Assembly (NCBI RefSeq): GCF_020091405.1
Contig: NZ_CP081903.1
Span: 1,178,001 to 1,242,000 of the forward strand
Source: Bacteroides cellulosilyticus
GTDB taxonomy: Bacteria > Bacteroidota > Bacteroidia > Bacteroidales > Bacteroidaceae
Length of the DNA: 64,000 bases
Direction: 5' to 3'
Part shown: positions 10,467-53,680 of the stretch, piece by piece
Layout of the letters: each line of letters opens with the position of its first letter
Numbering within the stretch: the stretch's first letter is position 1
Notes under the pieces: model-generated
What the model saw: the letters and a program-made list of their open reading frames with translations, nothing else
What the model was told of the DNA's origin: nothing
The model's database searches: none
Position numbers and translations under genes: made by a program

Positions 10467-10550
10467 ATCTTTTAATTTCTTCGAACACTAAGACGCTTTC
10501 CTCTGATTTCTCAGAATCACCACACCCTTGCGTTCACTATTATTCGTTTA

Positions 10551-27098: not shown

Positions 27099-27132
27099 CA
27101 AAATTCGTCCGACAAACGCCCAAAAATATACA
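27099..27132 (-). promoter_or_regulatory. Putative HTCS operator, nahK
   Basis: On the minus strand the first half-site TGTATATTTTTGGGC starts at 27132 (58 bases above the -7 box) and the second, CGGACGAATTTTG, starts at 27111 (37 bases above). The second shares 9 of 13 bases with the corresponding half-site of the 53.6-kb operon (TGTACGATTTATG). The site lies between the divergent nahK and HTCS genes. Confidence 0.55.
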
Positions 27133-27231: not shown

Positions 27232-30200
27232 GTGCAAAAGTTTATCAGAACGCTGTTTCTTGTTTTAGTAAGCATAGTTACGGCAAACGTACACAGCCAG
27301 AATATCACTTTCAATCATCTGACCACCGACGACGGCCTATCTCAGTTTAGTGTCAACAGTTTGTATATTGATGAAAATGGTATCTTATGGATTGGTACGC
27401 GCGAAGGTTTGAACCGTTACAATGGAAACGATATACAGACTTACAAACTGAACAAAAACGATCCCTACAGCCTTTTCTGTAACACCGTGCTCCGCATGGC
27501 AGGCGACCAGAACGGGAAAATCTACCTGCTCTGTACCGAAGGGGTTGCCCAGTTCGACCTGACTACCCAACGCTTCACCACCCTCCTGCAAGGAAATATC
27601 AATAGCATATATTATAAAAACGGCCTTTTCATCGGAAAAAAGAACGAAATATACCGCTACAATGAGCAAACCGACAACTTCGATCTTTATTACCAGATGG
27701 CAGGAGAAAACATCGAAATATCCTGCATGTTCGAAGACAAAGGACACATGTGGATAGGAACCACCAGCGAAGGTGTGTTCAATCTGAAAATAGACGAGCA
27801 TCTGCTAACCCACCCCATCGAGAAAGGAAATATCACCAGCATTTACCAGGACAATGCAGGCGAACTGTGGATCGGAAGCTGGGAAAAGGGACTCTTCCGG
27901 GTGAAAACAGACGGAAGCATCGAGAACCTGCGAAACGACCCGAAGAACCCGCACAGCATATCTTCCGATTTCGTGAGAGCCTGCTGTGAGGATAATCTTG
28001 GCAATATCTGGATAGGAACCTTCAACGGTCTGAACCGGTACAACAAAACAACAGGACTTTTCCAGAACCATACCTCCAACGAGATGCAGAATGAAGGACT
28101 TACACACTCGTCCATCTGGTGCATCGTAAAAGATAATCAGGGTACCTTATGGCTGGGTACTTACTTCGGCGGTGTCAATTACTTCAACCCCGAATACGAA
28201 ATCTATACCCGGTACAAAGCTTCCATCCATGAAGAAGAAGGACTAAGCAGCCCCGTAGTCGGACGCACCATCGAAGATAAGAACGGAAATCTGTGGATTG
28301 GCACGGAGGGAGGCGGACTGAACTTCTATAACCGCCGGACACGTGAGTTCAAGTGGTATCTTGCCGGACAGGGACGCAACAGCATCTCCCACAGCAATGT
28401 GAAAGCCCTTTACTATGATCCCGCAAAGGAAATCATCTGGATAGGAACCCATCTTGGCGGACTGAACAAACTGGATATCCGCACAGGCGCATTCACGCAT
28501 TATCTGATGGAAGAAGGGAATCCGGAAACTCTTCCGTCCAATATAGTTCGCGACATAACCCCCTACCAGGACCAATTGATTGTTGCTACCCAAAACGGTG
28601 TGTGCCTGTTCAATCCTCAGACCGGGAAATGCCAACAGCTCTTTAAAGATAGCAAAGAAGGGCGTAAGATAGCTATGGTTGCAGATGTAGAGGTAGATAA
28701 TAACGGCACGCTCTGGATTGCCGCCACAGGCGAAGGTATCTTCTCCTACCGCTTCGATACCAACAAGTTGACCAATTACCGTCACGACGGGACGCAAGCG
28801 CACAGCCTCAGCAACAATAATGTGAACAACATTATGCAGGACAGCAAGGGTAACTTGTGGTTCTCCACTTCAGGAAGCGGCCTCGACCTGTACCGTCCCG
28901 CTACCAACGATTTCGAAAACTTCGACAAGGGCAAGAACGGACTTGTCAGCGATTGCATCTACGATACACAAGAATCCCCCGTCAGCGGTAAACTGATACT
29001 GATTACCAATCAGGGCTTCTCCATCTTCGATCAGAAAGCGGAAAAGTTCCAGAACTACAGCGTGGAGAACGGTTTTCCACTGACAGCTGTCAATGAAAAC
29101 GCGCTTTGCGTGACACGCGACGGAGAAATCTTCCTTGGCGGTACGCAAGGTATGCTCTCATTCAATGAACTGGAACTTAATTTCACCCCGAAGCCTTATA
29201 AGATCATCCTTTCCCGCCTCATTGTAAACGGTTCCGAAGTAAAAGTGAGCGATGAAACGGGCATTTTGACGCAATCCCTATGCCATACGCAGGAAATCAC
29301 CCTGAATGCCAATCAGACAATGTTCAGCATCGAGTTTGCCACTTCCAATTACGTGGCTGCCAATAAGGATGAAATCATCTACAAGCTGGAAGGCTTCTCC
29401 GACGATTGGAACAGCACGCGTGGCCAACCTATCATCACCTACACAAACCTGAATGCCGGAACATACAATCTGCTGATTAAGCCTAAAGGAAAGGAAGAGT
29501 CGCTTTGTCCGCAAGTACACCTGACAATTCATGTACTGCCACCTTATTATAAGACTCCGCTCGCCTATCTTATTTATCTGATAGTGACCGGCATCCTTTT
29601 GTGGTATCTGGTGAAGACATACAAATCAAGAATCAAGCTGCGTGAATCGTTGAAGTACGAACAGAAGCATATACAAGACGTGGAAGCGCTGAACCAATCG
29701 AAATTACGCTTCTTCACCAACATCTCTCACGAGTTCCGCACACCGCTTACGCTCATCGTGTCGCAGGTGGAAACCCTGATGCAATTGCAAAACTTCACAC
29801 CCACCATTTATAATAAGATACTGAGCATTTACCAGAACAGCATCCAATTGCGCGAGCTCATCACCGAGCTCCTTGACTTCCGCAAACAGGAACAAGGACA
29901 CATGAAGGTAAAAGTCAGCCCGCACAACATCGTGCATTTCCTTTATGAGAATTACCTCATCTTCATGGAATATGCAAGCAGCAAGCAGATCAATTTCAAC
30001 TTCGAGAAAGACAGTGAAGGTCTGGAAGTGTGGTATGACCAGAAGCAAATGCAGAAGGTAATCAACAACCTGTTATCCAATGCCATCAAGCATACCCAAG
30101 CCGAAGATACCATCACACTCAGCATCACCACCGAAGGCAATGAAGCCGTAATTCGCGTGACTGATACAGGCAGCGGCATCGACGCCAAAGAAGTAGATAA

Positions 30201-31305
30201 GATATTCGACCGCTTCTATCAGACAGAGCAGATGGACAGTCTCACCACCGGCGTAGGTACCGGTATCGGTCTGGCTTTGACCAAAGGCATCGTCGAACTG
30301 CACCACGGCACCATCAAGGTAGAAAGCGAACTGGGCAAAGGTAGCAGCTTCATCGTCCGCCTCCGCTTGGGCAACGCCCACTTCAATGCCGAGGAAATCA
30401 GCAAGAAGAACGAAGACGTACAGCAAATAGAGCAACCGCAAACTTCCGAAATAGACGCTTCACTCAAAGCCGAACTGGAAGAAAATGCCCCGATTAAGCG
30501 TATGCCTGATGTCAAGATGGTTATCGTGGAAGACAACGCCTCCATTCGTGAGATGTTGGAAAACATCTTCCGCCCATTCTATCAGGTGCTGACAGCCGCA
30601 GACGGTGAAGAAGGTCTGGAGCTGATACAGAAGGAAATGCCGAATATTGTGGTAAGCGACGTCGTTATGCCCAAAATGTCCGGTACCGAACTCTGCAAAC
30701 TGATTAAGAATGATTTCAATACCTGCCACATACCGGTAGTACTGCTTACCGCACGAACTGCCGTAGAGCAGAACATTGAAGGACTGCGCATCGGTGCGGA
30801 CGATTACATCACCAAACCATTCAATACGAATCTGTTGATTTCGCGTTGTAACAACCTGGTAAATTCACGCATTCTCTTGCAGGAAAAGTTCAGTAAACAA
30901 CCACAGGCTTATGCGCAGATGCTTGCCACCAACCCGATAGATAAGGAAATCCTGGACCGCGCCATCAGCATCATCGAAAAGAATCTGGATAATACGGAAT
31001 TTAATGTCAACATCTTCGCCCGCGAAATGGCTATGGCACGCACCAACCTGTTCACCAAACTGAAAGCCATCACCGGACAAACACCGAATGACTTCATCCT
31101 GACCATCCGCCTGAAAAAAGGCGCCCTGATGTTGCGGAACAACCCGGAACTGAACATCACCGAGATATCGGACAAGATAGGTTTCAGCTCTTCGCGCTAC
31201 TTCTCAAAGTGTTTCAAGGATGTATATCACGTCAGTCCGCTTGCCTACCGCAAAGGGGAAGACGCCGACAAAGAGGAGAAAAACGAGGAAGACGAAGAGG
31301 GCTGA
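27232..31305 (+). CDS. Hybrid two-component system regulator (HTCS)
   Basis: 1357-aa one-protein sensor and transcription factor. Domains in order: signal peptide (1-23); two seven-bladed propellers of repeated (D/E)-x-x-G-x-(L/I)-W-(I/F) blades to about 680; Y_Y_Y domain (690-770) in the periplasm; TM helix about 774-796; histidine kinase with phospho-acceptor His833 in NISHEFRTPLTLI and ATPase boxes NNLLSNAIKH and DTGSGID; receiver with Asp1143 in VVSDVVMPKMSG; AraC-type HTH at about 1250-1345. The start is GTG, with a Shine-Dalgarno-like GGAGG at 27223-27227, unusual for Bacteroides. Its position next to sulfatase-susC matches the B. thetaiotaomicron BT3334 chondroitin sulfate regulator. 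It probably senses an unsaturated disaccharide and binds the element described upstream of susC. Confidence 0.95.
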   Translation: MQKFIRTLFLVLVSIVTANVHSQNITFNHLTTDDGLSQFSVNSLYIDENGILWIGTREGLNRYNGNDIQTYKLNKNDPYSLFCNTVLRMAGDQNGKIYLLCTEGVAQFDLTTQRFTTLLQGNINSIYYKNGLFIGKKNEIYRYNEQTDNFDLYYQMAGENIEISCMFEDKGHMWIGTTSEGVFNLKIDEHLLTHPIEKGNITSIYQDNAGELWIGSWEKGLFRVKTDGSIENLRNDPKNPHSISSDFVRACCEDNLGNIWIGTFNGLNRYNKTTGLFQNHTSNEMQNEGLTHSSIWCIVKDNQGTLWLGTYFGGVNYFNPEYEIYTRYKASIHEEEGLSSPVVGRTIEDKNGNLWIGTEGGGLNFYNRRTREFKWYLAGQGRNSISHSNVKALYYDPAKEIIWIGTHLGGLNKLDIRTGAFTHYLMEEGNPETLPSNIVRDITPYQDQLIVATQNGVCLFNPQTGKCQQLFKDSKEGRKIAMVADVEVDNNGTLWIAATGEGIFSYRFDTNKLTNYRHDGTQAHSLSNNNVNNIMQDSKGNLWFSTSGSGLDLYRPATNDFENFDKGKNGLVSDCIYDTQESPVSGKLILITNQGFSIFDQKAEKFQNYSVENGFPLTAVNENALCVTRDGEIFLGGTQGMLSFNELELNFTPKPYKIILSRLIVNGSEVKVSDETGILTQSLCHTQEITLNANQTMFSIEFATSNYVAANKDEIIYKLEGFSDDWNSTRGQPIITYTNLNAGTYNLLIKPKGKEESLCPQVHLTIHVLPPYYKTPLAYLIYLIVTGILLWYLVKTYKSRIKLRESLKYEQKHIQDVEALNQSKLRFFTNISHEFRTPLTLIVSQVETLMQLQNFTPTIYNKILSIYQNSIQLRELITELLDFRKQEQGHMKVKVSPHNIVHFLYENYLIFMEYASSKQINFNFEKDSEGLEVWYDQKQMQKVINNLLSNAIKHTQAEDTITLSITTEGNEAVIRVTDTGSGIDAKEVDKIFDRFYQTEQMDSLTTGVGTGIGLALTKGIVELHHGTIKVESELGKGSSFIVRLRLGNAHFNAEEISKKNEDVQQIEQPQTSEIDASLKAELEENAPIKRMPDVKMVIVEDNASIREMLENIFRPFYQVLTAADGEEGLELIQKEMPNIVVSDVVMPKMSGTELCKLIKNDFNTCHIPVVLLTARTAVEQNIEGLRIGADDYITKPFNTNLLISRCNNLVNSRILLQEKFSKQPQAYAQMLATNPIDKEILDRAISIIEKNLDNTEFNVNIFAREMAMARTNLFTKLKAITGQTPNDFILTIRLKKGALMLRNNPELNITEISDKIGFSSSRYFSKCFKDVYHVSPLAYRKGEDADKEEKNEEDEEG

Positions 31306-31498: not shown

Positions 31499-31532
31499 TG
31501 TACATTTTCGCCCTTCTCCTGTACTTCATTAT
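31499..31532 (+). promoter_or_regulatory. Putative HTCS operator, sulfatase gene
   Basis: TGTACATTTTCGCCC begins at 31499, 57 bases above the -7 box, and TGTACTTCATTAT begins at 31520, 36 bases above it. The intervening GCCCTTCTCCTGTA matches the GH88 site (GCCCTTTTCCTGTA) at 13 of 14 positions. Confidence 0.5.
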
Positions 31533-31596: not shown

Positions 31597-33156
31597 ATGA
31601 AACAATTTTCCCCTTTATGGTCTCTTCTCCCGGGCGCAGCCCTGATAGCCGGATGCGGAAATCCATCGAAAAAAGAAGCCACCGACCACACCCGTCAGAA
31701 ACCTAATGTAATATATCTGATTGCCGACGACCTGGGCATCGGTGACTTGAGTTGCTATGGCGCTACCAAGATAAGCACTCCCAACATCGACCGCCTTGCC
31801 GGACAAGGTGTACAGTTCACCAATGCCTATGCCACTTCCTCTACCAGTACTCCTTCCCGCTTCGGTCTGTTGACGGGCATGTATCCCTGGCGACAGGAGA
31901 ACACGGGAATCGCTCCGGGTAACTCTGAACTGATTATCGACACAGCCTGTGTCACTATGGCCGATATGTTCAAGGCAGAAGGCTATGCCACCGGTGCCGT
32001 AGGCAAATGGCATCTGGGACTCGGTCCCAAAGGTGGTACGGACTTCAATCATCTGATAAAGCCTAATACCCAGGATATAGGCTTTGATTACGAATACATC
32101 ATTCCCGCCACGGTTGACCGTGTACCTTGCGTATTCGTTGAAAACGGACATGTAGTAGGTTTAGATCCCAACGATCCCATTACCGTCAACTATAACCACA
32201 AAGTGGGTGACTGGCCTACCGGATTGGAGAATCCGGAACTTGTAAAGCTGAAACCCAGCCAGGGGCATAACAATACGATTGTGAATGGTATTCCCCGCAT
32301 TGGTTGGATGACCGGTGGTAAATCTGCTCTTTGGGTGGATGAGGACATTGCAGATGTAATCACAGGTAAAGCAAAAGATTTTATTATCAAGCATAAAGAC
32401 GAACCTTTCTTTATGTACATGGGTACGCAAGATGTACATGTTCCACGCGTCCCCCACGCCCGTTTCGCCGGAAAGAGCGGTATGGGAACCCGTGGTGACG
32501 TAATCCTGCAACTGGACTGGACTGTGGGTGAGATTATGAATACTCTGGACAGTCTGAACCTTGCGGATAACACCATCTTTGTATTCTGTAGTGATAACGG
32601 CCCTGTCATTGACGACGGTTATCAGGATCAGGCCCTCGAACTGCTGAACGGTCACACTCCTATGAAGCAATACCGTGGTGGAAAGTACAGTGCCTATGAA
32701 GCCGGAACACGTATTCCCTTTATTGTACGTTGGCCTGCCGGTATTCAGCCTTGCAAACAGCAAGCTCTATTCTCTATGATCGATGTGTATGCTTCTTTAG
32801 CCGCGTTACTGAATCATCCGCTTACACCTGCAACTGTTGCTCCCGACAGCCGTGACCAACTGGCCACTTTCTTAGGGAAAGACAATACCGGATGCGACTA
32901 TGTAGTACAGCAGAATTTGAACAATACTTTATCGATTATTCAAGGAACATGGAAGTACATCGAGCCAAGTGATAAGCCCGCCATCGAACACTGGACTAAA
33001 ATGGAGTTAGGGAATGATCCAAAGCCCCAACTGTACAATATTTCCATAGATCCGTCGGAGAAAGATAACGTTGCAGCAGCACATCCGGAGATGGTAAAAG
33101 AGCTTTCAGCACTACTGGAACAGGTGAAGGCCGGAAAGAACCAAGGAATAAAGTAA
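31597..33156 (+). CDS. Ser-type S1 sulfatase lipoprotein, probable GalNAc-6-O-sulfatase
   Basis: 519 aa; lipobox LIAGC with Cys20. N-terminal metal-binding LIADDLGIGDLSCYG, maturation motif STPSRFGLLTG with the modified Ser84, then GKWHLGLG, TQDVHVPRVPHARF and VFCSDNGPVIDDG complete the formylglycine-sulfatase active-site set. The order HTCS - sulfatase - susC - susD equals that of the B. thetaiotaomicron chondroitin sulfate locus, where the equivalent gene (BT3333) is described as an exo N-acetylgalactosamine 6-O-sulfatase; that specificity is inferred here. It has its own promoter with an operator-like site. Confidence 0.88.
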   Translation: MKQFSPLWSLLPGAALIAGCGNPSKKEATDHTRQKPNVIYLIADDLGIGDLSCYGATKISTPNIDRLAGQGVQFTNAYATSSTSTPSRFGLLTGMYPWRQENTGIAPGNSELIIDTACVTMADMFKAEGYATGAVGKWHLGLGPKGGTDFNHLIKPNTQDIGFDYEYIIPATVDRVPCVFVENGHVVGLDPNDPITVNYNHKVGDWPTGLENPELVKLKPSQGHNNTIVNGIPRIGWMTGGKSALWVDEDIADVITGKAKDFIIKHKDEPFFMYMGTQDVHVPRVPHARFAGKSGMGTRGDVILQLDWTVGEIMNTLDSLNLADNTIFVFCSDNGPVIDDGYQDQALELLNGHTPMKQYRGGKYSAYEAGTRIPFIVRWPAGIQPCKQQALFSMIDVYASLAALLNHPLTPATVAPDSRDQLATFLGKDNTGCDYVVQQNLNNTLSIIQGTWKYIEPSDKPAIEHWTKMELGNDPKPQLYNISIDPSEKDNVAAAHPEMVKELSALLEQVKAGKNQGIK

Positions 33157-33190: not shown

Positions 33191-33229
33191 TGTACAAATT
33201 CGTACTTTTTGCGAACTATTAACGAAAGT
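33191..33229 (+). promoter_or_regulatory. Putative HTCS operator, first susC
   Basis: A 39-base block matches the block before the second susC (41213-41251) at 35 positions. It contains TGTACAAATTCGTAC (near-palindromic, 58 bases above the -7 box) and CGAACTATTAACGAAAGT (37 bases above). Its 3' end lies 19 bases from the -7 box, exactly as in the second copy, so it occupies the position of a -33 element. Confidence 0.75.
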
Positions 33230-33248
33230 AGACTTCTATCCAATCGCA

Positions 33249-33256
33249 TACATTTG
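33249..33256 (+). promoter_or_regulatory. -7 box (TACATTTG) of the first susC
   Basis: Perfect TAnnTTTG, 66 bases before the susC ATG, at a fixed 19-base distance from the operator-like block. Confidence 0.65.
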
Positions 33257-33322
33257 CGTTGGAATTCGAGTCGTTTAACGATAAAGAACAACCTTTTTTA
33301 ATAACTAATTAATTTAATATTT

Positions 33323-36300
33323 ATGAAACAGAAATCAAGCCTCTTGAAAGCGCTAAGTATCATGTTACTTTTTGTTCTGTTTGCAACACAAGCAAAAGCA
33401 CAGGGAATAACAGTTACTGGTACTGTAAACGACAACTTAGGTCCTGTTATCGGTGCATCCGTAGTGGTAAAAGGAACCGTTAATGGTTGCATTACAGATT
33501 TGGATGGAAACTTCAAATTAACAAATGTACCTTCAAAAGGTACTTTAGTCGTATCTTTTGTAGGTTACCAGACACAAGAGATTGCTGTCAACAATCAAAC
33601 GAAATTCACTATTAATTTAAAGGAAGATGCTCAACAACTGGATGAAGTCGTTGTTGTGGCAGTGGGGTATGGTGACGTAAAGCGTCGCGACTTAACCGGT
33701 TCTATCGGTAAAGCCAATATGGATGACCTGACAAAAACTCCTATCAACAATATTGCCGAATCTCTAGGCGGACGTATAGCAGGTGTTCAGGTGTCTTCTT
33801 CCGACGGTGGCCTAGGAGATAACTTCAATATTGTTATTCGCGGTGCCGGCTCATTAACCCAAAGTACTGCTCCTCTTTATGTTATTGACGGTTTTCCAAT
33901 GGAAAGCTCAAGTATGGGCGCGCTCAATCCAAACGACATCGAATCAATTGACGTACTAAAAGATGCTTCAGCCACAGCTATTTATGGTTCCCGTGGTGCC
34001 AATGGCGTCGTTATCATTACCACTAAAAAAGGCAAAGCCGGAAAAACAATGGTTACCTATAACGGTAGCGTAAGTTTTAGTACTGTTAGAAACAAAATGG
34101 ATGTCATGAATGCCTATGATTTTGCATGTATGCAGAAAGAAATCATGGCAGGCAATACAAAAGAAGTAGACGGTGAAATGGTTGACGAATTTGAATACTT
34201 TTATTTAAAGAACGGACTGACACTTGACGATTATAAAACAATGAAGAATTATAACTGGCAAGATGAAATCTATCGTACTGCTTTAAGTCATAACCATCAC
34301 GTTGCTTTAAGCGGTGGTACGGACAAAATGGACTACACCGCATCTCTGTCATACAGCAACCAAGAAGGCGTTATTATACGTTCCGATTTAAATCGCTATC
34401 AAGGTCGTTTCAACTTGAATCAAAGAATCAACAAGAGCATTAAAGTTAATGCGAATGTTAACTATGCCAGTGTTACTCAGAATGGTCCTAATCCATCTAT
34501 CAACACTTCTCAGTCTTCCAACTCATTAATGTACAGTGTATGGGGCTACCGCCCTGTTTCCCCTTCCGGTTCCGACCTTTTGGCAGAACTTTATGACGAA
34601 GATGTAGATATAAACAATGATTATCGATTCAATCCGGTAAAATCTGCACAAAACGAATATCGCCGTAAGATTACAAATACCCTGCAAGCTAATTTGGGTG
34701 TAGAATGGGAAATCATCAAGAACCTGAAGTTAAAAGTAACAGCCGGCTATACAGGCAAAGACTATAAGAACGAAGAATTCAACAATTCTCAAACACGTAC
34801 CGGTAATAGTCATCCGAATAATACTCAGAGTAAGGGAGTCAATGCCTATCTATATCAATCAGAAAGCAGAAGCTATCTGAATGAGAATACGTTGAGTTAT
34901 GTTTTCAACAAGAAAAAACATAATCTAAACACCCTGTTGGGTATTACTTTCCAGAAAAACACCAGCTACTATCATGATGTCAGCGTTTCTCATATTACTA
35001 ATGAATCATTAGGCATGGCTGGCTTAGGAAATGGTGATGTTCCTGTTGTCAGCGCTTCTAAGGGAGAAAATGCTCTGATGTCTTATTTGGGACGCTTAAA
35101 CTACAATTATGATTCAAAATATTACGTTACTTTCTCCATGCGTGCTGATGGTTCATCCAAATTTGCACCAGGCAATCGTTGGGGGTATTTCCCTTCAGGC
35201 TCACTGGCTTGGGCTTTTGGACGTGAAAATTTTGTAAAAGATAATCTTACATGGCTATCTAATGGTAAATTGCGTGTCAGCTACGGTCTCACAGGTAACA
35301 ATCGTATTGGAGATTATGATTACATGGCTCGCTTGTATGCAAGTGAGAACACTTACAAATATCCTTGGGACAGCACTTTCTATCCAGGATACTATGTTTC
35401 CAGCATTGCTAATCCTAACCTAAAATGGGAAACGACCGAGCAATATGACTTTGGTTTGGATTTAGGCTTCTTGGATGGACGCTTAAACCTGAATATTGAC
35501 TACTATATCAAAACAACCAAAGATCTGCTGATGAATGCCGATACTCCTGCCAGTTCCGGTTATGCTACTACCCGTCTTAACATTGGAGAGTTACGCAATA
35601 CAGGATTTGAAGTTACTTTAGAAAGTACTAACATACAGAATAAGAACTTTACCTGGTCATCCAGCTTCAATATAGCATTCAATAAAAATAAAATCTTGTC
35701 TTTGAACTACGGACAGGAACAGATGACAAGTTACATCAGCTGGGATCAGAAATTCAGAAATCAGATAGCCTATGTCAGTCGGGTAGGCGAATCTGCCGGT
35801 AAAATGTATGGTTTCGTATATGATGGAACATATAAAGAAGAAGACTTCAATATCACTATCAATGAAAACGGGAAGAAAACTTACGAACTGAAACCAGGAG
35901 TTCCTAAATTTAAAGATGGTTGCCAACCCGGTGATCCAAAATATAAGAACGTCGATGGCAGCGAAGATAATCTGATCACAGATAATGACCGGACAGTAAT
36001 TGGCAACGGACATCCACTGCATACAGGTGGTTTCACTAACAATTTTGTCTATAAAAACTGGGATTTAAATATTTTCTTGCAATGGAGCTACGGTAATGAT
36101 ATATTCAATGTGAATCGTCTCGTAATGGAAAATCCAGGAGCTAAAAAACAGTTGAACCAGTTCGCATCTTATAAGAATCGCTGGAGTGAAAGCAATCCTA
36201 CCAGCAACATCCCCCGTGTAAGAGCAGTTGGTGCTGATGAATACAGCTCACTGTACGTAGAAGATGGATCATTCCTGAAATTGAAAACAATCTCTTTAGG

Positions 36301-36508
36301 ATATAACTTTGATGCCAAGACTTTGAAGAGAATAGGTATCAGTGCAGCAAGGGTATTCGTTTCTGCTGAAAATATCGCTACCATTACGGGATATTCCGGT
36401 TCAGATCCTGAGGTTTCTACACGTCACTCTGTGTTGACTCCTGGTTTTGACTGGTCGGCTTATCCTCGTGCATTCAATGCTTCACTTGGTGTAAATGTAA
36501 CTTTCTAA
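33323..36508 (+). CDS. SusC-like TonB-dependent oligosaccharide importer (pair 1)
   Basis: 1061 aa. Signal peptide to ATQAKAQ, then a carboxypeptidase-regulatory-like beta domain (GTVNDNLGPVIGASVVVKG), the LDEVVVVAVGYG TonB-box region, a plug domain (AESLGGRIAGVQVSS, IDVLKDASATAIYGSRGANGV) and a 22-strand barrel ending FNASLGVNVTF. Forms a pedal-bin pair with the SusD protein encoded 21 bases downstream, importing sulfated or unsulfated glycosaminoglycan oligosaccharides. Its N-terminal ~95 residues closely resemble those of the second SusC, while the barrel is divergent. Confidence 0.95.
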   Translation: MKQKSSLLKALSIMLLFVLFATQAKAQGITVTGTVNDNLGPVIGASVVVKGTVNGCITDLDGNFKLTNVPSKGTLVVSFVGYQTQEIAVNNQTKFTINLKEDAQQLDEVVVVAVGYGDVKRRDLTGSIGKANMDDLTKTPINNIAESLGGRIAGVQVSSSDGGLGDNFNIVIRGAGSLTQSTAPLYVIDGFPMESSSMGALNPNDIESIDVLKDASATAIYGSRGANGVVIITTKKGKAGKTMVTYNGSVSFSTVRNKMDVMNAYDFACMQKEIMAGNTKEVDGEMVDEFEYFYLKNGLTLDDYKTMKNYNWQDEIYRTALSHNHHVALSGGTDKMDYTASLSYSNQEGVIIRSDLNRYQGRFNLNQRINKSIKVNANVNYASVTQNGPNPSINTSQSSNSLMYSVWGYRPVSPSGSDLLAELYDEDVDINNDYRFNPVKSAQNEYRRKITNTLQANLGVEWEIIKNLKLKVTAGYTGKDYKNEEFNNSQTRTGNSHPNNTQSKGVNAYLYQSESRSYLNENTLSYVFNKKKHNLNTLLGITFQKNTSYYHDVSVSHITNESLGMAGLGNGDVPVVSASKGENALMSYLGRLNYNYDSKYYVTFSMRADGSSKFAPGNRWGYFPSGSLAWAFGRENFVKDNLTWLSNGKLRVSYGLTGNNRIGDYDYMARLYASENTYKYPWDSTFYPGYYVSSIANPNLKWETTEQYDFGLDLGFLDGRLNLNIDYYIKTTKDLLMNADTPASSGYATTRLNIGELRNTGFEVTLESTNIQNKNFTWSSSFNIAFNKNKILSLNYGQEQMTSYISWDQKFRNQIAYVSRVGESAGKMYGFVYDGTYKEEDFNITINENGKKTYELKPGVPKFKDGCQPGDPKYKNVDGSEDNLITDNDRTVIGNGHPLHTGGFTNNFVYKNWDLNIFLQWSYGNDIFNVNRLVMENPGAKKQLNQFASYKNRWSESNPTSNIPRVRAVGADEYSSLYVEDGSFLKLKTISLGYNFDAKTLKRIGISAARVFVSAENIATITGYSGSDPEVSTRHSVLTPGFDWSAYPRAFNASLGVNVTF

Positions 36509-36529
36509 TTACTAAACTGAAAAACGAAT

Positions 36530-38146
36530 ATGAAGAAAATAAAAAATCTCTTTAAAAAGGTATGTTTGTGGTCACTCGTGGTAACAATGGCTTCATGTGA
36601 CTTCCTCGACACAAAGCCTTATGATTTTGTGGCTCCTGAAACGTTCTACCAGAATGAGAAAGATTGTACAATGGCTTTAGCCGGAGTATATTATACCCTG
36701 GTAAAAGGGACTGTTTACGGCAATAATTATTCACTGATGTTCTCCAACACAGATGATTTAAGTTATTTTGCCCGCGAATTTGATGGAAATCCAGTAAAGA
36801 ACCACGGTGCGGTCTGCAATACTCATGATGCTGCCAATGCACAACTTTTCGATACATGGACAGATCTTTACGATGGTATTAATAATGCCAATGTGTTACT
36901 TGATAACATTGATAAAGCTGAATTTCCCGCAGATAAAGAGTATGTAAGACAGCGTATCAAAGGCGAAACCAAATTTCTGCGTGCCTACTATCACTTCCTT
37001 TTGGTACAAGGATGGTATGAAGTACCTATCCGTACAGAAACGGTTACAGACATAGCTACGAGTAGTAAAGCTGCCACTCCCCATGCAGAAGCACTCGACT
37101 GGATTATCCAGGAAATGGAAGACTGCATCGACATGGTAGATGACAAAGAATATGATAAATCGCCTTCTCATGTAAAGAAAACTATTGTCGAGGGTATCTT
37201 GGCACGCGTATGCCTGTGGCGCGCCGGTTATCCAAGCGAAGGTGGACAGCCTTTTTATGAAAAAGCCGCCAAATATGCTAAAGCTGTTTATGATTCCAAG
37301 AAGCACAAGCTGTATCAAAATGATATTTATGCTATCTGGAAAATGATGGCTTCCGACCAATACGATCCTGTATATAATGAAAGTATGTGGGAAGCGGAAT
37401 TCATCGGTACCCGTGATGACGGTAAATATACAGAGGGTCGTATGGGTAATGAAATCGGTAATATGCAAAATGCAAATTGTGGAAAAGGATATGGCGCCGC
37501 TTTTTATGCCGGTTCACTCATCCTTTGGGATCTATACGAAAAAAATCCTGGTGACATAAGACGTGATCTGGCTATGGCTCCTTACCAAATTGCCGCCAAT
37601 GGAACAGAAAAAGCATGGGGCAAAACAGCTATTGTAGAACGTTGTTGCGGTAAATTCCGCCGTGAATGGGAAAAGAGTACCCCTCAGCACAAAAATTTCA
37701 CTGAAGAAAACTTCCCCATTTTACGCTACGCTGATGTTCTTTTAATGCTGGCAGAGGCAGAATTAGAATCCAAAGGGGTTACCACTCTAGCCGTATCTGC
37801 CATCAATGAAGTACGCACGCGTGCCGGAATCGGTAAATTGCCGGAAACAATTTCTGTAGATGAACTTCGCCAAGAAATTCGTGATGAACGTGGACGTGAA
37901 CTTTGCTTCGAAGCATTACGTAAATATGACCTGATCCGTTGGGGTATTTATGTAAAGACCATCAGTCAGAACTTGGCAAATGCTATTGAAGATGCACGTT
38001 GGTCAACCAAAAAGGCAAACAGAAGCGGTGCTGAAGGTTTTACCAAAAGTACTCAGAACAAACACCAGTTCTTGCCAATCCCCAATAAAGAACTGTCTGT
38101 GAATACCAAGTTAGAACAAAACAGCTATTGGAATCCAAAGAAATAG
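36530..38146 (+). CDS. SusD-like surface glycan-binding lipoprotein (pair 1)
   Basis: 538 aa. Lipobox MASCDFLDTKP. The TPR-rich SusD fold is recognisable from GETKFLRAYYHFLLVQGWYEVPI, FPILRYADVLLMLAEAELE and the C-terminal DERGRELCFEALRKYDLIRWG. It acts as the lid and binding partner of the SusC encoded just before it. The gene is followed by a two-hairpin element and then the PL8 lyase gene. Confidence 0.95.
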   Translation: MKKIKNLFKKVCLWSLVVTMASCDFLDTKPYDFVAPETFYQNEKDCTMALAGVYYTLVKGTVYGNNYSLMFSNTDDLSYFAREFDGNPVKNHGAVCNTHDAANAQLFDTWTDLYDGINNANVLLDNIDKAEFPADKEYVRQRIKGETKFLRAYYHFLLVQGWYEVPIRTETVTDIATSSKAATPHAEALDWIIQEMEDCIDMVDDKEYDKSPSHVKKTIVEGILARVCLWRAGYPSEGGQPFYEKAAKYAKAVYDSKKHKLYQNDIYAIWKMMASDQYDPVYNESMWEAEFIGTRDDGKYTEGRMGNEIGNMQNANCGKGYGAAFYAGSLILWDLYEKNPGDIRRDLAMAPYQIAANGTEKAWGKTAIVERCCGKFRREWEKSTPQHKNFTEENFPILRYADVLLMLAEAELESKGVTTLAVSAINEVRTRAGIGKLPETISVDELRQEIRDERGRELCFEALRKYDLIRWGIYVKTISQNLANAIEDARWSTKKANRSGAEGFTKSTQNKHQFLPIPNKELSVNTKLEQNSYWNPKK

Positions 38147-38157
38147 CAATATACATG

Positions 38158-38243
38158 ACTTCTAACCTTAAAATGAAATCAAATAGACCTTAATCAATTT
38201 GATATGTGTGGGGAGAGTGACCGTGAGGTTCCTCTCCTTCTTT
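38158..38243 (+). promoter_or_regulatory. Two-hairpin intercistronic element after the first susD (copy 1)
   Basis: After CTTCTAACCTTA, ATCAAAT (38178-38184) pairs with ATTTGAT (38197-38203) around a 12-base loop. A second hairpin has GGAGAG (38212-38217) against CTCTCC (38232-38237), with CGTGAGGTTC in its loop, and ends in a pyrimidine-rich stretch. The same arrangement recurs after the second susD. Probably a partial terminator or mRNA-stabilising element that sets the expression of susCD against the lyase gene. Confidence 0.65.
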
Positions 38244-38270
38244 CTATCAAACTTAAAAACAATATACCAG

Positions 38271-41174
38271 ATGACCCAAAAACACTTATTATTTATTCTT
38301 GTACTGCTATGCGGTCAAGTATCCTTTGCCCAACTGATAGGTTTTGAGACTGGAATTCCCAAACAGTTTCAAACAAGTGATAAAGGAAAAATAACTTTAT
38401 CTACTCAGTACTATAAAGAAGGGAAACAAAGCCTGGAATGGGATTTCCGCTCCGGTTCCAAACTCAATGTATCTCTGGAACAGCCTCTCACCCTTGATGA
38501 GCGAATAGAAAATTCATACGGAATAACTTTATGGATTTATAACGAGGTTCCCCAGCAAGATTCTATTCGTTTTGAGTTTCTTTCTCCCCAAGGAGATATA
38601 TCTTATTGGTTCAGTTTCCGATTGGCATCGGCTGGCTGGCGCGCTTGCTGGATTGGCTTCCAACACATGAAAGGAGATAAACAAAATAAAGAAATAGCAA
38701 GCTATCGGCTGGTAGCCCCTGAACGAAAAGGCCGTATATTTCTAGACCGTTTGACTTTCCCTGTAAAAAAGATGAACGACCGTACTACCCCCGATTTACA
38801 GATGCCTTACAATAACTCCCTCTCGTATCGCGACCTGTGGCATTGGTGCCGGGTTTGGCAATGGGAACAATATAAGTATGATATTCCATTACCTTCCGCC
38901 CTCAATCAAGCAGAAAAAGACGAACTCCGTATTGTAGAACAGCGGTTAACCACCGCCATCGATATTCAGAAAGCACCAAAAGAAGCTGTTTCCAAAGCAT
39001 ACGATGTTTTTCAGAAAGCCAATATTCAACGCTCTGGGACAGGATTCACAGGTGCTCCTATCCTGCCCCCCGATGAGCTGAACCGTTCCAAAGGAGAAAT
39101 ATCCTGGAATGACTTGGAAACAATGCTCTCCGGATTTGCCTACGATGCTTATTACAATCATTCGGAAACTTCCCACCAGAATTACTTCACCGTCTGGGAC
39201 TTCGCCATAGACCAAGGATTCGCTTTCGGTAGCGGGATGGGAACCAATCATCACTATGGATATCAGGTACGGAAAATTTATACTACAGCCTGGTTAATGC
39301 GCGACGCTATTTGGAAGGCTCCCAACCGGGAGAATATCTTAACCACTCTCATTTTCTGGTCTGCCTTACAAGAAACCCGCCAACCTTACCAATACGGAAG
39401 AGATGAATTACTGGACAGTTGGCATACTCTTTTAATGGCCAAAACAGTTTCAGCACTACTATTCACTGACAAGCGGGAACGAGTACGCGCACTGAAAGGC
39501 CTTTCCCGTTGGGTATCCTCTTCTCTTCAATACACTCCGGGCACTATCGGAGGTATCAAAGTAGACGGAACCACTTTCCACCATGGCGGTTTCTATCCAG
39601 CCTATACCACAGGAGTACTCGCCATGGTAGGCCAATTTATTTCCTTAACCAATAATACCGCCTATGAACCTACCGAAGAGGCTCGTCAAGTTCTGAAATC
39701 TGCCTTTATTGCCATGCGTAACTACTCTAATAAATATGAATGGGGAATTGGTATTAGTGGACGGCACCCTTTCGGCGGCTCGATGAAGGCGGATGACATA
39801 GCTGCTTTTGCTTATCTTGCCCTATCAGGAGACTTATCAGGAGAAGGCAATGCCTTCGACCACCATCTGGCAGCAGACTATCTGCGGCTTTGCGAAAAGG
39901 ATACCCCCGAAGCACGTTATTTCAAAGCGCAGGGCATTGCTCCCACCTCCGCTCCACAAGGTTTCTTTGTATATAACTATGGGGCAGCAGGTATCTTCCG
40001 GAGAAGCGATTGGATGGTAACCTTAAAAGGTTATACCACTGACGTCTGGGGATCTGAGATTTATCGAAAAGATAACCGTTATGGACGTTACCAAAGTTAT
40101 GGTTCCGTCCAAATTATGGGATACCCTTCACGCCTTGCCAGCGGTTACGATGAGAACGGGTGGGATTGGAATCGCCTGCCGGGAACTACAACCATCCATT
40201 TACCATTCGAGTTGCTCGACAGTCCACTACCGGGAACCACCATGGCTCATTCTAAAGAAAATTTTTCAGGCAGTAGTTCTCTCGAAGGTAAAAACGGCAT
40301 GTTTGCTACAAAACTGATGGAACGTGAACTGAAAAACTTTACTCCAGATTTCGTAGCCCGCAAATCAGTCTTCTGTTTTGAGAACCGGATGATATGTTTA
40401 GGTAGTGGGATTAAAAATAGTAATAACAACTATTCTACAGAAACAACTTTATTTCAGAGCCTCTTCCACAAAGGCATAAGCAGCATTCATATCAATGGAG
40501 ATGAACATAAAGAAGTAGGATTCTATCAAACAATTAATTGCAAAGCAGAGCAGCCCACCTGCATCAAAGACAGTTATAATAATTATTATTTTGTCAAGGA
40601 TGGAGAAATAAAAGTTCAGATAGCGGAACAAAAATCACTTCATGAGAAAACACGTGCTGTCACCCATGGCACTTTCGCATCCTCATGGATTGATCACGGC
40701 AAAGCTCCAAACAATGCAACTTACGAATACATGATATGGATACAACCTACTGATGAAGAATTAAAAAAGCAAGTATTGCAAAGCTATGAAGTATTGCAAC
40801 GCGATAATGATGCACACATTGTTCATGATTACAAAACTGGCATTACCGCTTATGTACTATTTGAATCATTCGAATCACAGACTGATAAACTATTCCATAG
40901 TATACCAGCTGAAACAATGGTAATGTACCGGAATGATAATGATAAGATCATTCTAAGTGTTTGTGACCCAAATCTGAACATTAGCGAAAAGACTTATACA
41001 ACCAAAGAGCCCAGCCGCATCATAAAGAAACAACTGGAGTTAAAAGGCTTATGGAAACCAGCAAAGGATAGTAAACAAACGGAAATCTCTTATAAAGCCA
41101 ATAGTACAAATCTCACTGTTTACTGCCAACATGGACAACCTGTAGAAATAACACTAATTAATCTCCCACAATAG
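38271..41174 (+). CDS. PL8 chondroitin/hyaluronan lyase (first)
   Basis: 967 aa from ATG 38271, which gives the signal peptide MTQKHLLFILVLLCGQVSFAQ; an upstream in-frame ATG falls in the hairpin element and is rejected. N-terminal carbohydrate-binding beta sandwich (about 25-175), alpha/alpha toroid, then beta-sandwich domains. Catalytic residues by family alignment: His438 and Tyr445 in TTFHHGGFYPAY, and Arg498 in [26 protein letters not shown] is another PL8 block. Cleaves by beta-elimination to leave 4,5-unsaturated uronates. The gene follows susCD 1, probably in the same operon. Confidence 0.93.
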   Translation: MTQKHLLFILVLLCGQVSFAQLIGFETGIPKQFQTSDKGKITLSTQYYKEGKQSLEWDFRSGSKLNVSLEQPLTLDERIENSYGITLWIYNEVPQQDSIRFEFLSPQGDISYWFSFRLASAGWRACWIGFQHMKGDKQNKEIASYRLVAPERKGRIFLDRLTFPVKKMNDRTTPDLQMPYNNSLSYRDLWHWCRVWQWEQYKYDIPLPSALNQAEKDELRIVEQRLTTAIDIQKAPKEAVSKAYDVFQKANIQRSGTGFTGAPILPPDELNRSKGEISWNDLETMLSGFAYDAYYNHSETSHQNYFTVWDFAIDQGFAFGSGMGTNHHYGYQVRKIYTTAWLMRDAIWKAPNRENILTTLIFWSALQETRQPYQYGRDELLDSWHTLLMAKTVSALLFTDKRERVRALKGLSRWVSSSLQYTPGTIGGIKVDGTTFHHGGFYPAYTTGVLAMVGQFISLTNNTAYEPTEEARQVLKSAFIAMRNYSNKYEWGIGISGRHPFGGSMKADDIAAFAYLALSGDLSGEGNAFDHHLAADYLRLCEKDTPEARYFKAQGIAPTSAPQGFFVYNYGAAGIFRRSDWMVTLKGYTTDVWGSEIYRKDNRYGRYQSYGSVQIMGYPSRLASGYDENGWDWNRLPGTTTIHLPFELLDSPLPGTTMAHSKENFSGSSSLEGKNGMFATKLMERELKNFTPDFVARKSVFCFENRMICLGSGIKNSNNNYSTETTLFQSLFHKGISSIHINGDEHKEVGFYQTINCKAEQPTCIKDSYNNYYFVKDGEIKVQIAEQKSLHEKTRAVTHGTFASSWIDHGKAPNNATYEYMIWIQPTDEELKKQVLQSYEVLQRDNDAHIVHDYKTGITAYVLFESFESQTDKLFHSIPAETMVMYRNDNDKIILSVCDPNLNISEKTYTTKEPSRIIKKQLELKGLWKPAKDSKQTEISYKANSTNLTVYCQHGQPVEITLINLPQ

Positions 41175-41212
41175 GGTTAAAAAGCCATAGAATAATGATT
41201 AGCACATAAGTA

Positions 41213-41251
41213 TGTACAGATTCGTACTATTTACGAACTATAAACGAAAGT
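41213..41251 (+). promoter_or_regulatory. Putative HTCS operator, second susC
   Basis: Contains TGTACAGATTCGTAC and CGAACTATAAACGAAAGT, differing from the first susC copy at four of 39 positions, with the same 19-base distance to the -7 box. Surrounding sequence is less conserved, which points to selection on this block. Confidence 0.75.
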
Positions 41252-41270: not shown

Positions 41271-41278
41271 TATTTTTG
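41271..41278 (+). promoter_or_regulatory. -7 box (TATTTTTG) of the second susC
   Basis: TAnnTTTG match 65 bases before the ATG, at the same position as in the first susC promoter. Confidence 0.65.
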
Positions 41279-41343: not shown

Positions 41344-44300
41344 ATGGAAAAAAAATCTTGCTTCCTAAAAGCATTTGGTATTATGTTACTTTGTGTACTA
41401 TTTGCCACGCAGGCAAATGCACAGGAAATCACAGTAACAGGTACAGTGACAGACAACTTTGGCCCTGTAATCGGTGCCTCAGTAGTTGTAGATGGAACCT
41501 CTAATGGATGTATTACAGACCTTGACGGAAAATTCAGTCTCACTAATGTTCCTTCTAACGGAACTCTCTCATTCTCCTACATCGGTTATCAGACACAGAA
41601 AATCGCTGTAAATGGAAAAACCTCTATCAACGTAAAATTAGCAGAAGATACCCAACTACTTCAAGAAGTAGTAGTTGTAGGTTATGGCGTACAACGTAAA
41701 AGCGATTTAACTGGTGCGGTTGCTTCTGTAAAAGCAGGAGACGTATTGAAAAGTACACCTTCCGGTAATGTGTCGGATGCCCTGCAGGGACGTATGGCAG
41801 GTGTATCAGTTGTCAGCGCAGGCGATCCTTCCAGCGATCAGACAATTCGTATCCGTGGTATCAACTCTATTACTGCGGACAGTGAACCTCTGGTAGTGGT
41901 TGATGGATTTATCGGTGGTTCTTTAAAAGCTCTTAATCCTGCTGATATCCAATCCATTGAAGTCTTAAAGGATGCTTCAGCTACAGCCGTCTACGGTTCT
42001 CGTGGCGCCAATGGCGTAATCTTAGTGACAACAAAAACTCCAAACAAGGATCGCTTAACCGTATCTGTCAATGCATTTGTAAATCTGAAAACTGTAATCA
42101 GCAAGCCTGACCTCCTTTCTCCGGCAGAATTCGCTCAATTGGCCAACGCATATGGAAAAGAATATAACGAAAGCCAAGGAAAAGAAGCTCATGTATATTA
42201 TACTCCTGATCAAATAGCAGCTTTCTCAAGTGGTAAAGCAGGATATAATTATATAGATCATATTTTCAACTCTCCAGGAGTAGCTCAGAACTATGAAGTA
42301 TCAATAGCGGGTGGTGGTGAAAAAACAAACTTCTTGGCATCTCTCCGTTATGAAAGTGTAGAAGGAGCTATCAAGAATTCTAAAAATGATGCATTCAACT
42401 GGCGCTTAAAAGTTGATACTAAACTGAAAAAATGGTGGAAAGTCGGCATGAATATCTATGGTAATCTAAATGTGTCCTCAGGACCACGTATGACTCAATA
42501 TGAGGGTTTACTCGTTTCTGCTATTAATTTTCCCAATACTACTTCTCCCACAAATGAAAAAGGAGAATATAACAACATTTATGCTATTGGTGGGAATCCT
42601 GCTTATAATCCAATGGGATATATTAACGAAATTGATGGAGATACTCGCAGGCTGGTAAACAACCTCCAAGGTTATATGGATTTCAATATTATCGATGGAT
42701 TAACTTTCCGTACTCAGTTAGGAGTAACATTTACTAATTCATTAGCAACAAGCTCTGACAATGCCAAGAGTTATTATTACTTTAAAAATACCAGAACGCA
42801 GGCTACAGCCAACAGTGCTTTTAATTGGAGCTGGTTAAATACCAATACCTTGAATTATACCAAAGAATTTAATAAAAATCATCGTATCAATGCAACTGCT
42901 GTTTTAGAACAGTCCTATAGCAACAATTTCACTTTAAAAGGAGTAGCCAATAACATGTATTTTGAACGTCTTGGTGCTAACAGTTTAGCTGACTCTTACA
43001 GCCAGAATGCAAGTTCAGAGCGTATAATCAATACATTGCTTTCCGGAATGTTCCGCGTAAACTATGTTCTAATGGATAAGTACATGGTAACAGCTTCCAT
43101 TCGCGCCGACGGTTCCTCACGCCTAAAAGATAAATGGGATTATTTCCCTTCTGCAGCATTAGCATGGAATATCAAGCAGGAAGCATTTATGCAAGACGTA
43201 AAAGCTATTAGCCAGTTAAAGTTACGCATCGGATATGGTTCTGTAGGTAACCAAGCAATAGAGCCTTACCGTATTTTCTCTCAAATGGTACCTACCCAAA
43301 ACGCAGACGGCTCAACTTCTTACACAGTCGGACGTCCGGCAGCTGAATACTTAAAATGGGAGCGTAATGATCAAATCAATGCAGGTATAGACTTAGGTTT
43401 TTTCAATGGGCGCTTAACATTAACCGCCGACTGGTACAACAAATTATCTAAAGATGTTTTATTAGAGGTACAACAGCCTGTCCACAGTGGTTGGGATAAA
43501 CTTTTAAAAAATGCCTGCGAAATTCAGAACAGAGGTTTTGAGATCACAATTGGTGCAGATCCGGTAAATGGTAAAGATTGGAACTGGCATACAGACGTGA
43601 CTCTATCTCACAACAAAGGGACTTTCAAAAATATCCCTACATTAGATCGTACTCAAATCCAAGCAGGTCAATATGAGAACAAAGTATTCAAAATGATTGA
43701 AGGAGAAAAGCTGGGAACTTTTTGGGGATATACCAACTTAGGAGTCTGGAAAAGTGACGAAGTAAATCAAGAGGTCACTGTAGTCAAGAATGGAGTGGAA
43801 ACAAAAGGTACTTATGCTTCTATCTATAAAGTAGTGCCAGGCCAGGAAAAACTCTTAGACGCAAATAATGACGGTACTTACAATGATGATGATCAAAGTA
43901 TCATAGGTAATGGACAGCCCAGTTTTAACTGGGGGTGGAATAATACTCTCCGTTATAAAGACTTCGATCTCTCATTGTTCATTATCGGTTTCCACGGCTT
44001 CGATATTTATAATGTAACAGATCAATCAGGTTACGGGAATGCAGTATCAGGTATCAATACGGATGTTATTACTCCTAAACGTGCACTTTTAAATCGTTGG
44101 ACCAAAGAAAATGAAAACACCAATATTCCAGGATTTGTCAAACTCAACCAGACTACTACTGGATTTAATAGTCGATTTGTAGAAAAAGGCGATTTTATAA
44201 AAGTCAAGAGTATAACTTTAGGATATAACCTACCTAAAAAAGCATGTGATAAAGTTTTCCTCAATGATTTGAGACTTTACTTCTCTGTACAGAATCCTTT

Positions 44301-44427
44301 CATGATAACAAGCTATAGCGGTCTTGACCCGGAAGCAACTCTCGGTAGTCCATTAGTATCCGGCGTTGATTGGGGCTGCTACCCTAATAGCCGTAATTTT
44401 CTGTTAGGTGTAAATTTCTCGTTCTAA
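41344..44427 (+). CDS. SusC-like TonB-dependent oligosaccharide importer (pair 2)
   Basis: 1027 aa. Signal peptide to ATQANAQ, carboxypeptidase-regulatory-like domain (GTVTDNFGPVIGASVVVDG), LLQEVVVVGYGVQRKSDLTGAV, plug (SDALQGRMAGVSVVSAGD, IEVLKDASATAVYGSRGANG) and barrel ending SRNFLLGVNFSF. The first ~95 residues and the promoter resemble those of the first SusC, but the barrel does not, so the two importers probably take different oligosaccharides (for instance differing in sulfation or length). Confidence 0.95.
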   Translation: MEKKSCFLKAFGIMLLCVLFATQANAQEITVTGTVTDNFGPVIGASVVVDGTSNGCITDLDGKFSLTNVPSNGTLSFSYIGYQTQKIAVNGKTSINVKLAEDTQLLQEVVVVGYGVQRKSDLTGAVASVKAGDVLKSTPSGNVSDALQGRMAGVSVVSAGDPSSDQTIRIRGINSITADSEPLVVVDGFIGGSLKALNPADIQSIEVLKDASATAVYGSRGANGVILVTTKTPNKDRLTVSVNAFVNLKTVISKPDLLSPAEFAQLANAYGKEYNESQGKEAHVYYTPDQIAAFSSGKAGYNYIDHIFNSPGVAQNYEVSIAGGGEKTNFLASLRYESVEGAIKNSKNDAFNWRLKVDTKLKKWWKVGMNIYGNLNVSSGPRMTQYEGLLVSAINFPNTTSPTNEKGEYNNIYAIGGNPAYNPMGYINEIDGDTRRLVNNLQGYMDFNIIDGLTFRTQLGVTFTNSLATSSDNAKSYYYFKNTRTQATANSAFNWSWLNTNTLNYTKEFNKNHRINATAVLEQSYSNNFTLKGVANNMYFERLGANSLADSYSQNASSERIINTLLSGMFRVNYVLMDKYMVTASIRADGSSRLKDKWDYFPSAALAWNIKQEAFMQDVKAISQLKLRIGYGSVGNQAIEPYRIFSQMVPTQNADGSTSYTVGRPAAEYLKWERNDQINAGIDLGFFNGRLTLTADWYNKLSKDVLLEVQQPVHSGWDKLLKNACEIQNRGFEITIGADPVNGKDWNWHTDVTLSHNKGTFKNIPTLDRTQIQAGQYENKVFKMIEGEKLGTFWGYTNLGVWKSDEVNQEVTVVKNGVETKGTYASIYKVVPGQEKLLDANNDGTYNDDDQSIIGNGQPSFNWGWNNTLRYKDFDLSLFIIGFHGFDIYNVTDQSGYGNAVSGINTDVITPKRALLNRWTKENENTNIPGFVKLNQTTTGFNSRFVEKGDFIKVKSITLGYNLPKKACDKVFLNDLRLYFSVQNPFMITSYSGLDPEATLGSPLVSGVDWGCYPNSRNFLLGVNFSF

Positions 44428-44452
44428 TATTAACCGATAATATAAAAAACAT

Positions 44453-49747: not shown

Positions 49748-49775
49748 CACAGTTCTATTTTAAGGATTAACTTCA

Positions 49776-52862: not shown

Positions 52863-52883
52863 GGTATGAGAATATTAATAGAG

Positions 52884-53645: not shown

Positions 53646-53680
53646 CATAAATCGTACAGAAAAGGTATATTTTAGTTATT
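53646..53680 (-). promoter_or_regulatory. Putative HTCS operator, PL8-sulfatase operon
   Basis: On the minus strand the second half-site TGTACGATTTATG starts at 53658, preceded by CCTTTTC as at the GH88 operon. The expected first half-site region (starting near 53680) reads ATAACTAAAATAT and is a poor match, so this is the weakest member of the set. Confidence 0.4.

Follow-up and report, generated by a model that had tools for sequence, protein, structure and literature searches.

Which regulator controls the glycosaminoglycan (GAG) genes that lie apart from one another in a 64,000-nucleotide stretch of a 6.94-Mb Bacteroides genome (C1:1178001-1242000, here called the window)? The locus holds genes for a hybrid two-component system regulator (HTCS), a sulfatase, the importer pair susC1-susD1, a PL8 lyase and a second pair, susC2-susD2, with outlying GH88-sulfatase and DUF6250-PL8-sulfatase genes. 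Sites of one type were located at six promoters of the window. Judged from sequence comparison, these six sites are very probably the operator of the HTCS encoded at 27232-31305, which as a dimer would bind the repeat and activate the target genes. Coordinates and scores of all features are collected in Table 1.

A direct-repeat element at six promoters

The blocks at 33191-33229 and 41213-41251, in the promoters of susC1 and susC2, were identical at 35 of 39 positions, and the gap from block end to -7 box was 19 bases in both copies. The next-best ungapped matches to the two blocks, over both strands of the window, reached 23 and 24 of 39. Searched with up to 3 mismatches, their joint pattern occurred at those two places alone in the 6,935,738-base genome. 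The SusC1 and SusC2 proteins shared just 36% identity, and the blocks are therefore no recent duplicate. Throughout the window first halves started 57-59 bp and second halves 36-37 bp above the -7 box. At the 53658 site the second half alone was recognisable, with no clear first half, and the -7 box was TTTCTTTG.

A seed matrix was made from the window's five first and second halves and scored over 118 promoters of nahK, sulfatase, GH88 and susC relatives, with the -7 box left unscored. A score of at least 12 was obtained in 78 of the 118, and TAnnTTTG (at most 1 mismatch) was present 57-59 bp below the site start in 76 of these 78; the other two were the nahK sites of loci L018 and L037. The consensus of 56 distinct boxed sites (near relatives excluded) was TGTAC-N-AWTTTG-N-AC / YGDAC-N-ATT, 26.9 bits in total. 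Self-identity of the 56 sites was 0.519 at a shift of 21, and the remaining shifts between 14 and 25 each gave 0.25-0.34. The halves are therefore directly repeated and lie two helical turns apart. Half-site starts were 21 bp apart, sometimes 22. A two-site direct repeat with about this spacing in target promoters is the arrangement described for HTCS operators (Ravcheev et al., 2013).

Two models were built from foreign sites. R1 describes the operator alone and was trained on 56 sites of other genomes, the window's genome and its relatives at 93% or more (L003-L006, L020) being excluded; R2 was trained on 64 such sites with the -7 box included. R1 was run on the window with filters off, and the six reported sites took ranks 1-6 (E 2.8e-6 to 0.15). 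In the whole genome R1 gave 17 matches at E<=10, five of them in the locus (ranks 1, 2, 3, 5 and 11). All five had a perfect TAnnTTTG at 57-58, and none of the 12 off-locus matches had a -7 box with at most 1 mismatch at 57-59; the background of TAnnTTTG on the plus strand of the window was 1.5% of positions at up to 1 mismatch and 0.1% for perfect copies. With R2 the susC1, sulfatase, susC2, nahK and GH88 sites were ranks 1-5 of 52 in the 6.94-Mb genome (E 2.2e-8 to 6.2e-5), followed by rank 6 at E 0.011. The genome scans scored 150 of 2073 (R1) and 150 of 4873 (R2) first-pass candidates, and weak sites such as 53658 can therefore be missed. That site was absent from the genome-wide R2 list and was found in window-sized searches alone.

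R2 ranks 6-8 (E 0.011-0.038) stood before genes for DUF2264, GH2 and GH3 proteins. The DUF2264 and GH2 genes belong to a locus that encodes an HTCS of its own; such matches would be expected if a common architecture were shared by HTCS operators. At G000:C1:69640-87705 (L113, L114) three weak R2 matches (ranks 6, 7 and 12) were found within 18 kb, with an HTCS of that locus at 65469-69500; promoter geometry was the same there and half-site sequence different. A larger regulon elsewhere in the genome was considered and rejected: R2 ranks 6-30 of 52 were read by eye, and all had E>=0.011 and stood before other carbohydrate or unrelated genes. Pfam assigned five proteins at these loci to DUF2264, GH2, GH3, one HTCS and one alpha-N-acetylglucosaminidase. 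The last (L105), an enzyme type able to act on GAGs, was at rank 23 with E 0.99, which is chance level.

The initial annotation had reported the susC block match with its 19-base distance, the sites before the nahK, GH88, sulfatase and 53658 genes, and a spacing of 21-22 bases as two helical turns. The match and distance were reproduced, the places and distances of the other sites were right in the sequence, and the period-21 self-identity agrees with the spacing. Its expectation that a matrix would favour locus promoters over other promoters also held, given the first five R2 ranks and the lack of boxed off-locus R1 matches.

The HTCS and its predicted regulon

The chain of the HTCS combines propeller sensor, HisKA, HATPase, receiver and AraC-type domain. 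The expected residues were read by eye: the H-box SHEFRTP, the receiver Asp in VVSDVVMP, CHIP at 1165 and DK in NPIDKE. An S/CHIP plus DK motif is reported to keep the DNA-binding domain inactive in most HTCSs (PMC11253607). Scanning the genome contigs with the HTCS gave 61 loci, none of them from B. thetaiotaomicron. Best segments were 99% identical to B. timonensis and 97% to B. cellulosilyticus. Identity was 70-71% to the HTCSs of B. xylanisolvens and B. faecis, which are followed by a sulfatase gene and susCD. The HTCS is taken to be the ortholog of BT3334, the chondroitin sulfate (CS) and hyaluronan sensor of B. thetaiotaomicron.

Presence of the operator followed presence of the HTCS. 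Among 60 Bacteroides genomes, all 25 whose HTCS reached 60% identity or more (some HTCS matches being partial) had an R2 site at E<=1e-4, against 0 of the 35 that lacked such an HTCS; this cut was chosen after both lists were seen, and several of the 25 species supplied training sites. At that cut the operator is conserved where the regulator is present, and it is not conserved where the regulator is missing. HTCS loci at 59-99% identity had a site at E<=0.01 in 46 of 51 cases, many of them also sources of training sites. Ten more distant loci (46-58% identity) were scanned as well, and six of these (48-58%) had a site at E<=0.0085. The paralogous loci L052, L058, L059 and L063 (46-52% identity) had no site at E<=1. 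By eye, these four have in common a different start of the first helix-turn-helix in the AraC domain, and three of them come from species with a closer HTCS also (B. clarus, B. congonensis and B. nordii).

Promoters of nahK, GH88 and DUF6250 relatives were scanned with leave-one-gene-out matrices. The promoters were those among the matches listed (nahK 30 loci, GH88 30, DUF6250 14 of 30), and further matches exist. Where nahK is divergent to the HTCS, site and -7 box were found in 10 of 13 genomes listed; the window's genome and its near relatives make up five of these ten. Where nahK was found without an HTCS alongside, the site was found in 0 of 17 genomes listed, one of which (L136) ends at a contig end. 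Over the 30 loci scanned, nahK (25950-27035) thus has the operator solely where it is divergent to the HTCS. A boxed site was present in 23 of 30 GH88 promoters; 18 scored beyond most shuffles and five poorly, their scores being equalled by 11 to 35 of 60 shuffles. Of the seven promoters without one, four (G001, G012, G044, G032) have upstream R2 sites, so 23 of 30 may be low. DUF6250 promoters carried a site in 9 of 14 (five of the nine being the window's genome and relatives at 89-97%). What is conserved here is the second half, which reads TGTACGATTTATG, TGTACAATTTGAA or much the same, and the TTTCTTTG that stands at 57-58.

Two proposals made before this analysis, that the HTCS is the candidate regulator and that half-sites are conserved in orthologous promoters, gained support: the former from co-occurrence (25/25 against 0/35) and the four paralog loci without a site, the latter from the counts at HTCS loci (46/51) and at nahK (10/13), GH88 (23/30) and DUF6250 (9/14) promoters.

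No R1 or R2 site was found in the window scans on the plus strand between nahK and the HTCS, that is, before the HTCS itself. This is in keeping with a fold change below 1 reported for BT3334 on hyaluronan (PMC12877422). In other species, operators outside the training set were located before heparinase II/III-like and PL8 lyase genes (L028 6743-6810 and L012 8341-8405, respectively), so the target set differs by species.

Several points weigh against assigning the sites to this HTCS. The seed matrix that selected the training sites came from five sites of the window itself. When R1 was run over the genome, an off-locus match was 4th, above susC2, and nahK was 11th. The 53658 site has neither a first half nor a canonical -7 box and was missed genome-wide. 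Three of the 13 HTCS-adjacent nahK promoters (L122, L126 and L129) lack the site, and among the 51 HTCS loci three were weak (L017, L018 and L034, E 0.03-0.09) and two had none (L032, and L053 on a 4-kb contig). Weaker R2 matches (E 2e-4 to 0.0064) were present in 7 of the 35 genomes without the HTCS. Operator and HTCS share one locus, so that co-occurrence is partly linkage, and incomplete genomes may conceal an HTCS. Finally, a B. cellulosilyticus strain is reported to grow on CS and not on hyaluronan or free N-acetylgalactosamine (GalNAc), which does not fit simply with nahK serving GalNAc (PMC9745678).

It is very unlikely that the sites are real operators of another protein, for instance another HTCS or an unlinked AraC regulator. 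In favour of this reading, weak R2 matches occur at promoters of other carbohydrate loci (ranks 6-8), the first two of which belong to a locus with its own HTCS. However, the co-occurrence is with this HTCS, the four paralog loci have no site, the five strongest sites of the genome all lie around this HTCS, and the BT3332 promoter of B. thetaiotaomicron is reported not to respond without BT3334 (PMC9845299).

Importer genes behind the susC1 operator

Both susCD pairs are also present, in an identical layout, in the relative genome G057, and apart from the first pair its locus is 95-99% identical. At the protein level the HTCS, sulfatase, PL8, susC2 and susD2 products were 97.5-99.6% identical, with susC1 at 66% and susD1 at 58%. 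Taken segment by segment, DNA identity was 89-100% in operator and leader, up to the start codon of susC1, with a 100% match over the operator. It dropped to 51% at the codon, ranged from 51 to 76% as far as the end of susD1, rose to 78-85% over 38147-38500 and reached 98% past that point. SusC1 of G057 was 97% identical to that of G042, so it is the window that holds the odd allele. In B. timonensis another susC (53%) was found; identity there was lost from the lower half of the operator into the spacer and returned in the leader. Importer pairs thus seem to have been exchanged while the operator was kept.

SusC1 residues 1 to about 115 (33323-33667) were 70-72% identical to SusC2, against 37-64% to L005, L006 and L020, and the remainder was of SusC1 type. 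The exception among SusC1-type proteins was B. muris L009, at 59-74% over the first 115 residues. SusC1 is, on these identities, a mosaic.

Shared descent of a susC leader, with the other sites as chance look-alikes, would also explain the 39-base match, and it would account for two further observations: the leader down to the ATG matches between susC1 and susC2, and the SusC1 N-terminus resembles SusC2. We consider this even less likely than a different regulator, because the operator-only foreign model finds the nahK, GH88 and sulfatase sites with perfect, rightly spaced -7 boxes (0/12 off-locus), because the susC1 operator goes with the sulfatase side, being conserved in G057 up to the start codon, and because the leave-one-gene-out scans already disfavour it. 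Pure duplication of the susC leader was rejected in view of the same-geometry sites at the nahK, GH88 and sulfatase promoters. In the least probable alternative, a symmetric dimer of its own would bind the first element at susC (TGTACAAATTCGTAC, nearly palindromic), on DNA that overlaps the HTCS site. The susC first half does contain two GTAC copies in inverted arrangement, and R1 matches the opposite strand too (33187-33205, E 0.3). However, no second GTAC is present at the nahK, GH88 and sulfatase sites of the window, although their position is kept, and the family-wide signal is a 21-bp direct repeat.

With the sites read as the HTCS operator, one could imagine operator and leader as a fixed socket, behind which SusCD pairs are exchanged by recombination with regulation kept, and strains might stack two importers behind two socket copies. 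We put this forward tentatively and think it somewhat less likely than its converse. If true, an outer-membrane importer, and possible phage receptor, would change under unchanged regulation. As described by Joglekar et al. (2018) (PMC5967196), SusCD of the Bt-8736 fructan polysaccharide utilization locus (PUL) was likewise replaced (49%/39%) behind a conserved promoter (91%) with the HTCS kept. Unlike that locus, the window holds a GAG locus, the change falls at the susC start codon, and a second SusCD stands naturally behind an operator copy; in this it resembles the engineered strain with two SusCD pairs of the same study.

A stretch of about 90 bp after each susD (38158-38243 and 45982-46079) was common to L004, L020 and G057 at 83-86%.

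Proposed mechanism and known systems

Each half-site (TGTAC-N-AWTTTG; YGDAC-N-ATT) would take one AraC-type domain, with each chain of a single HTCS dimer supplying one of the two, both on one face of the DNA. The downstream half ends about 24 bp above TAnnTTTG and would thus cover the -33 region. A CS- or hyaluronan-derived unsaturated disaccharide would bind the periplasmic propeller, the kinase would phosphorylate the receiver, and the DNA-binding domains, held by the inhibitory CHIP-DK motif that is present here, would be released. The pair on the repeat may then help RNA polymerase at promoters without a strong -33 element. Predicted targets are both susCD pairs, the sulfatase, GH88 with its sulfatase, the DUF6250-PL8-sulfatase genes and nahK. 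They would make up a pathway of two outer-membrane importers, lyases, sulfatases, GH88 removing the unsaturated uronate, and a kinase, the nahK product, phosphorylating the released amino sugar. For BT3334 the ligand is reported to be a 6-sulfated or unsulfated CS disaccharide (PMC9845299).

By its anatomy the layout would work like an AraC-type activator on two direct-repeat half-sites. At araI1-I2 two AraC-type domains of Escherichia coli AraC occupy direct-repeat half-sites about 21 bp apart, the lower at the -35 region, and activate. AraC is a soluble arabinose sensor with a looping site. Here, unlike in E. coli, a membrane-bound hybrid kinase carries the domains, and the promoters have the -7 box typical of Bacteroides.

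Both this architecture and the idea of such a regulon were put forward earlier. Motifs for 16 of 36 HTCSs, direct repeats averaging 21 bp apart, were predicted by Ravcheev et al. (2013) (PMC3878776), who suggest same-face dimers. BT3334 is listed there as HTCS_Hya, with 7 orthologs in 11 genomes and a reconstructed regulon. The novelty of an HTCS regulon is thus less than the initial annotation assumed, the HTCS_Hya regulon having been predicted in 2013. By its published description that regulon resembles the present one in its related regulator, GAG substrate, two-site direct repeat of about 21 bp, and sulfatase and lyase targets; it differs in that here nahK has a site and two susCD pairs share the operator. 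Placing nahK under this HTCS goes beyond the published account. No title on nahK control by an HTCS was found in literature searches, which worked at title level with subscription papers mostly outside reach. The gene was apparently recruited into the regulon by its position.

As described (PMC6994673, PMC9845299), PUL CS/DS/HA of B. thetaiotaomicron (BT3324-BT3350) likewise has an HTCS, sulfatases, susCD, PL8 lyases and GH88, with co-regulated genes outside the locus. There 300 bp before BT3332 give an HTCS-dependent CS response: growth on CS raised the reporter 46- to 65-fold, and no rise was seen when BT3334 was missing (PMC9845299). That locus is described as having a PL29 lyase and one SusCD pair, whereas in the window there are two SusCD pairs, nahK adjoins the HTCS, and unrelated genes separate the parts. 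BT3333, which adjoins BT3334 as the sulfatase here adjoins the HTCS, is reported as a 6S-sulfatase (PMC6994673).

What is new is a genome-tested operator sequence, a kinase gene with a predicted site, and two seemingly exchangeable importers behind the operator. An operator sequence with promoter geometry for a CS sensor permits direct design of binding and reporter tests. A cytoplasmic amino-sugar kinase would be tied to the same switch in one lineage. The HTCS circuit would stay constant while the importer is swapped, which may help explain why growth on GAGs is poorly predicted from gene content alone.

Table 1. Genes and regulatory sites in the window (window coordinates; R1 ranks from the window scan, R2 ranks from the genome scan unless stated).
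Feature	Position	Strand	Basis
Operator of susC1	33191..33224	+	Half-sites TGTACAAATTCG at 33191 and CGAACTATTAAC at 33212; R1 rank 1, E 2.8e-6; R2 rank 1, E 2.2e-8
-7 box TACATTTG of susC1	33249..33256	+	Sequence; 58 bp below operator start
Operator of susC2	41213..41246	+	R1 rank 4, E 4.3e-3; R2 rank 3, E 1.7e-5
-7 box TATTTTTG of susC2	41271..41278	+	Sequence; offset 58
Operator of sulfatase gene at 31597	31499..31532	+	R1 rank 3, E 2.5e-4; R2 rank 2, E 8.9e-6; -7 box TACCTTTG at 31556-31563
Operator of nahK, divergent to HTCS	27099..27132	-	R1 rank 5, E 0.024; R2 rank 4, E 2.1e-5; -7 box TATATTTG at 27074-27067
Operator of GH88-sulfatase genes, 22-bp spacing	11839..11873	-	R1 rank 2, E 2.1e-4; R2 rank 5, E 6.2e-5; -7 box TACTTTTG at 11814-11807
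Second half-site TGTACGATTTATG before DUF6250-PL8-sulfatase genes	53646..53658	-	R1 rank 6, E 0.15; R2 in window E 0.047; -7 box TTTCTTTG at 53621-53614
HTCS, likely regulator	27232..31305	+	Pfam along 1357 aa: Reg_prop/Y_Y_Y sensor, HisKA, HATPase, receiver, AraC-type DNA-binding domain
nahK, APH-fold kinase related to N-acetylhexosamine 1-kinase	25950..27035	-	Pfam APH; PDB 4wh1, E 5.7e-70
Sulfatase adjoining HTCS	31597..33156	+	Pfam PF00884
susC1-susD1, replaced pair	33323..38146	+	Pfam; 66%/58% identity to G057
Polysaccharide lyase family 8	38199..41174	+	Pfam
susC2-susD2	41344..45967	+	Pfam
Sulfatase and GH88 glucuronyl hydrolase genes	8922..11765	-	Pfam
DUF6250-PL8-sulfatase genes	48380..53576	-	Pfam

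The nahK protein is related in sequence to N-acetylhexosamine 1-kinase through its match to PDB 4wh1; it matched no NCBIfam model. A protein encoded at 46267-47394 gave weak GH43 (Pfam) and beta-1,2-mannobiose phosphorylase (NCBIfam) matches, both under the cut-off. It is possibly an enzyme of GAG loci. Across seven HTCS loci (L007, L008, L012, L017, L031, L046 and L059) it was found at 71-80% identity.

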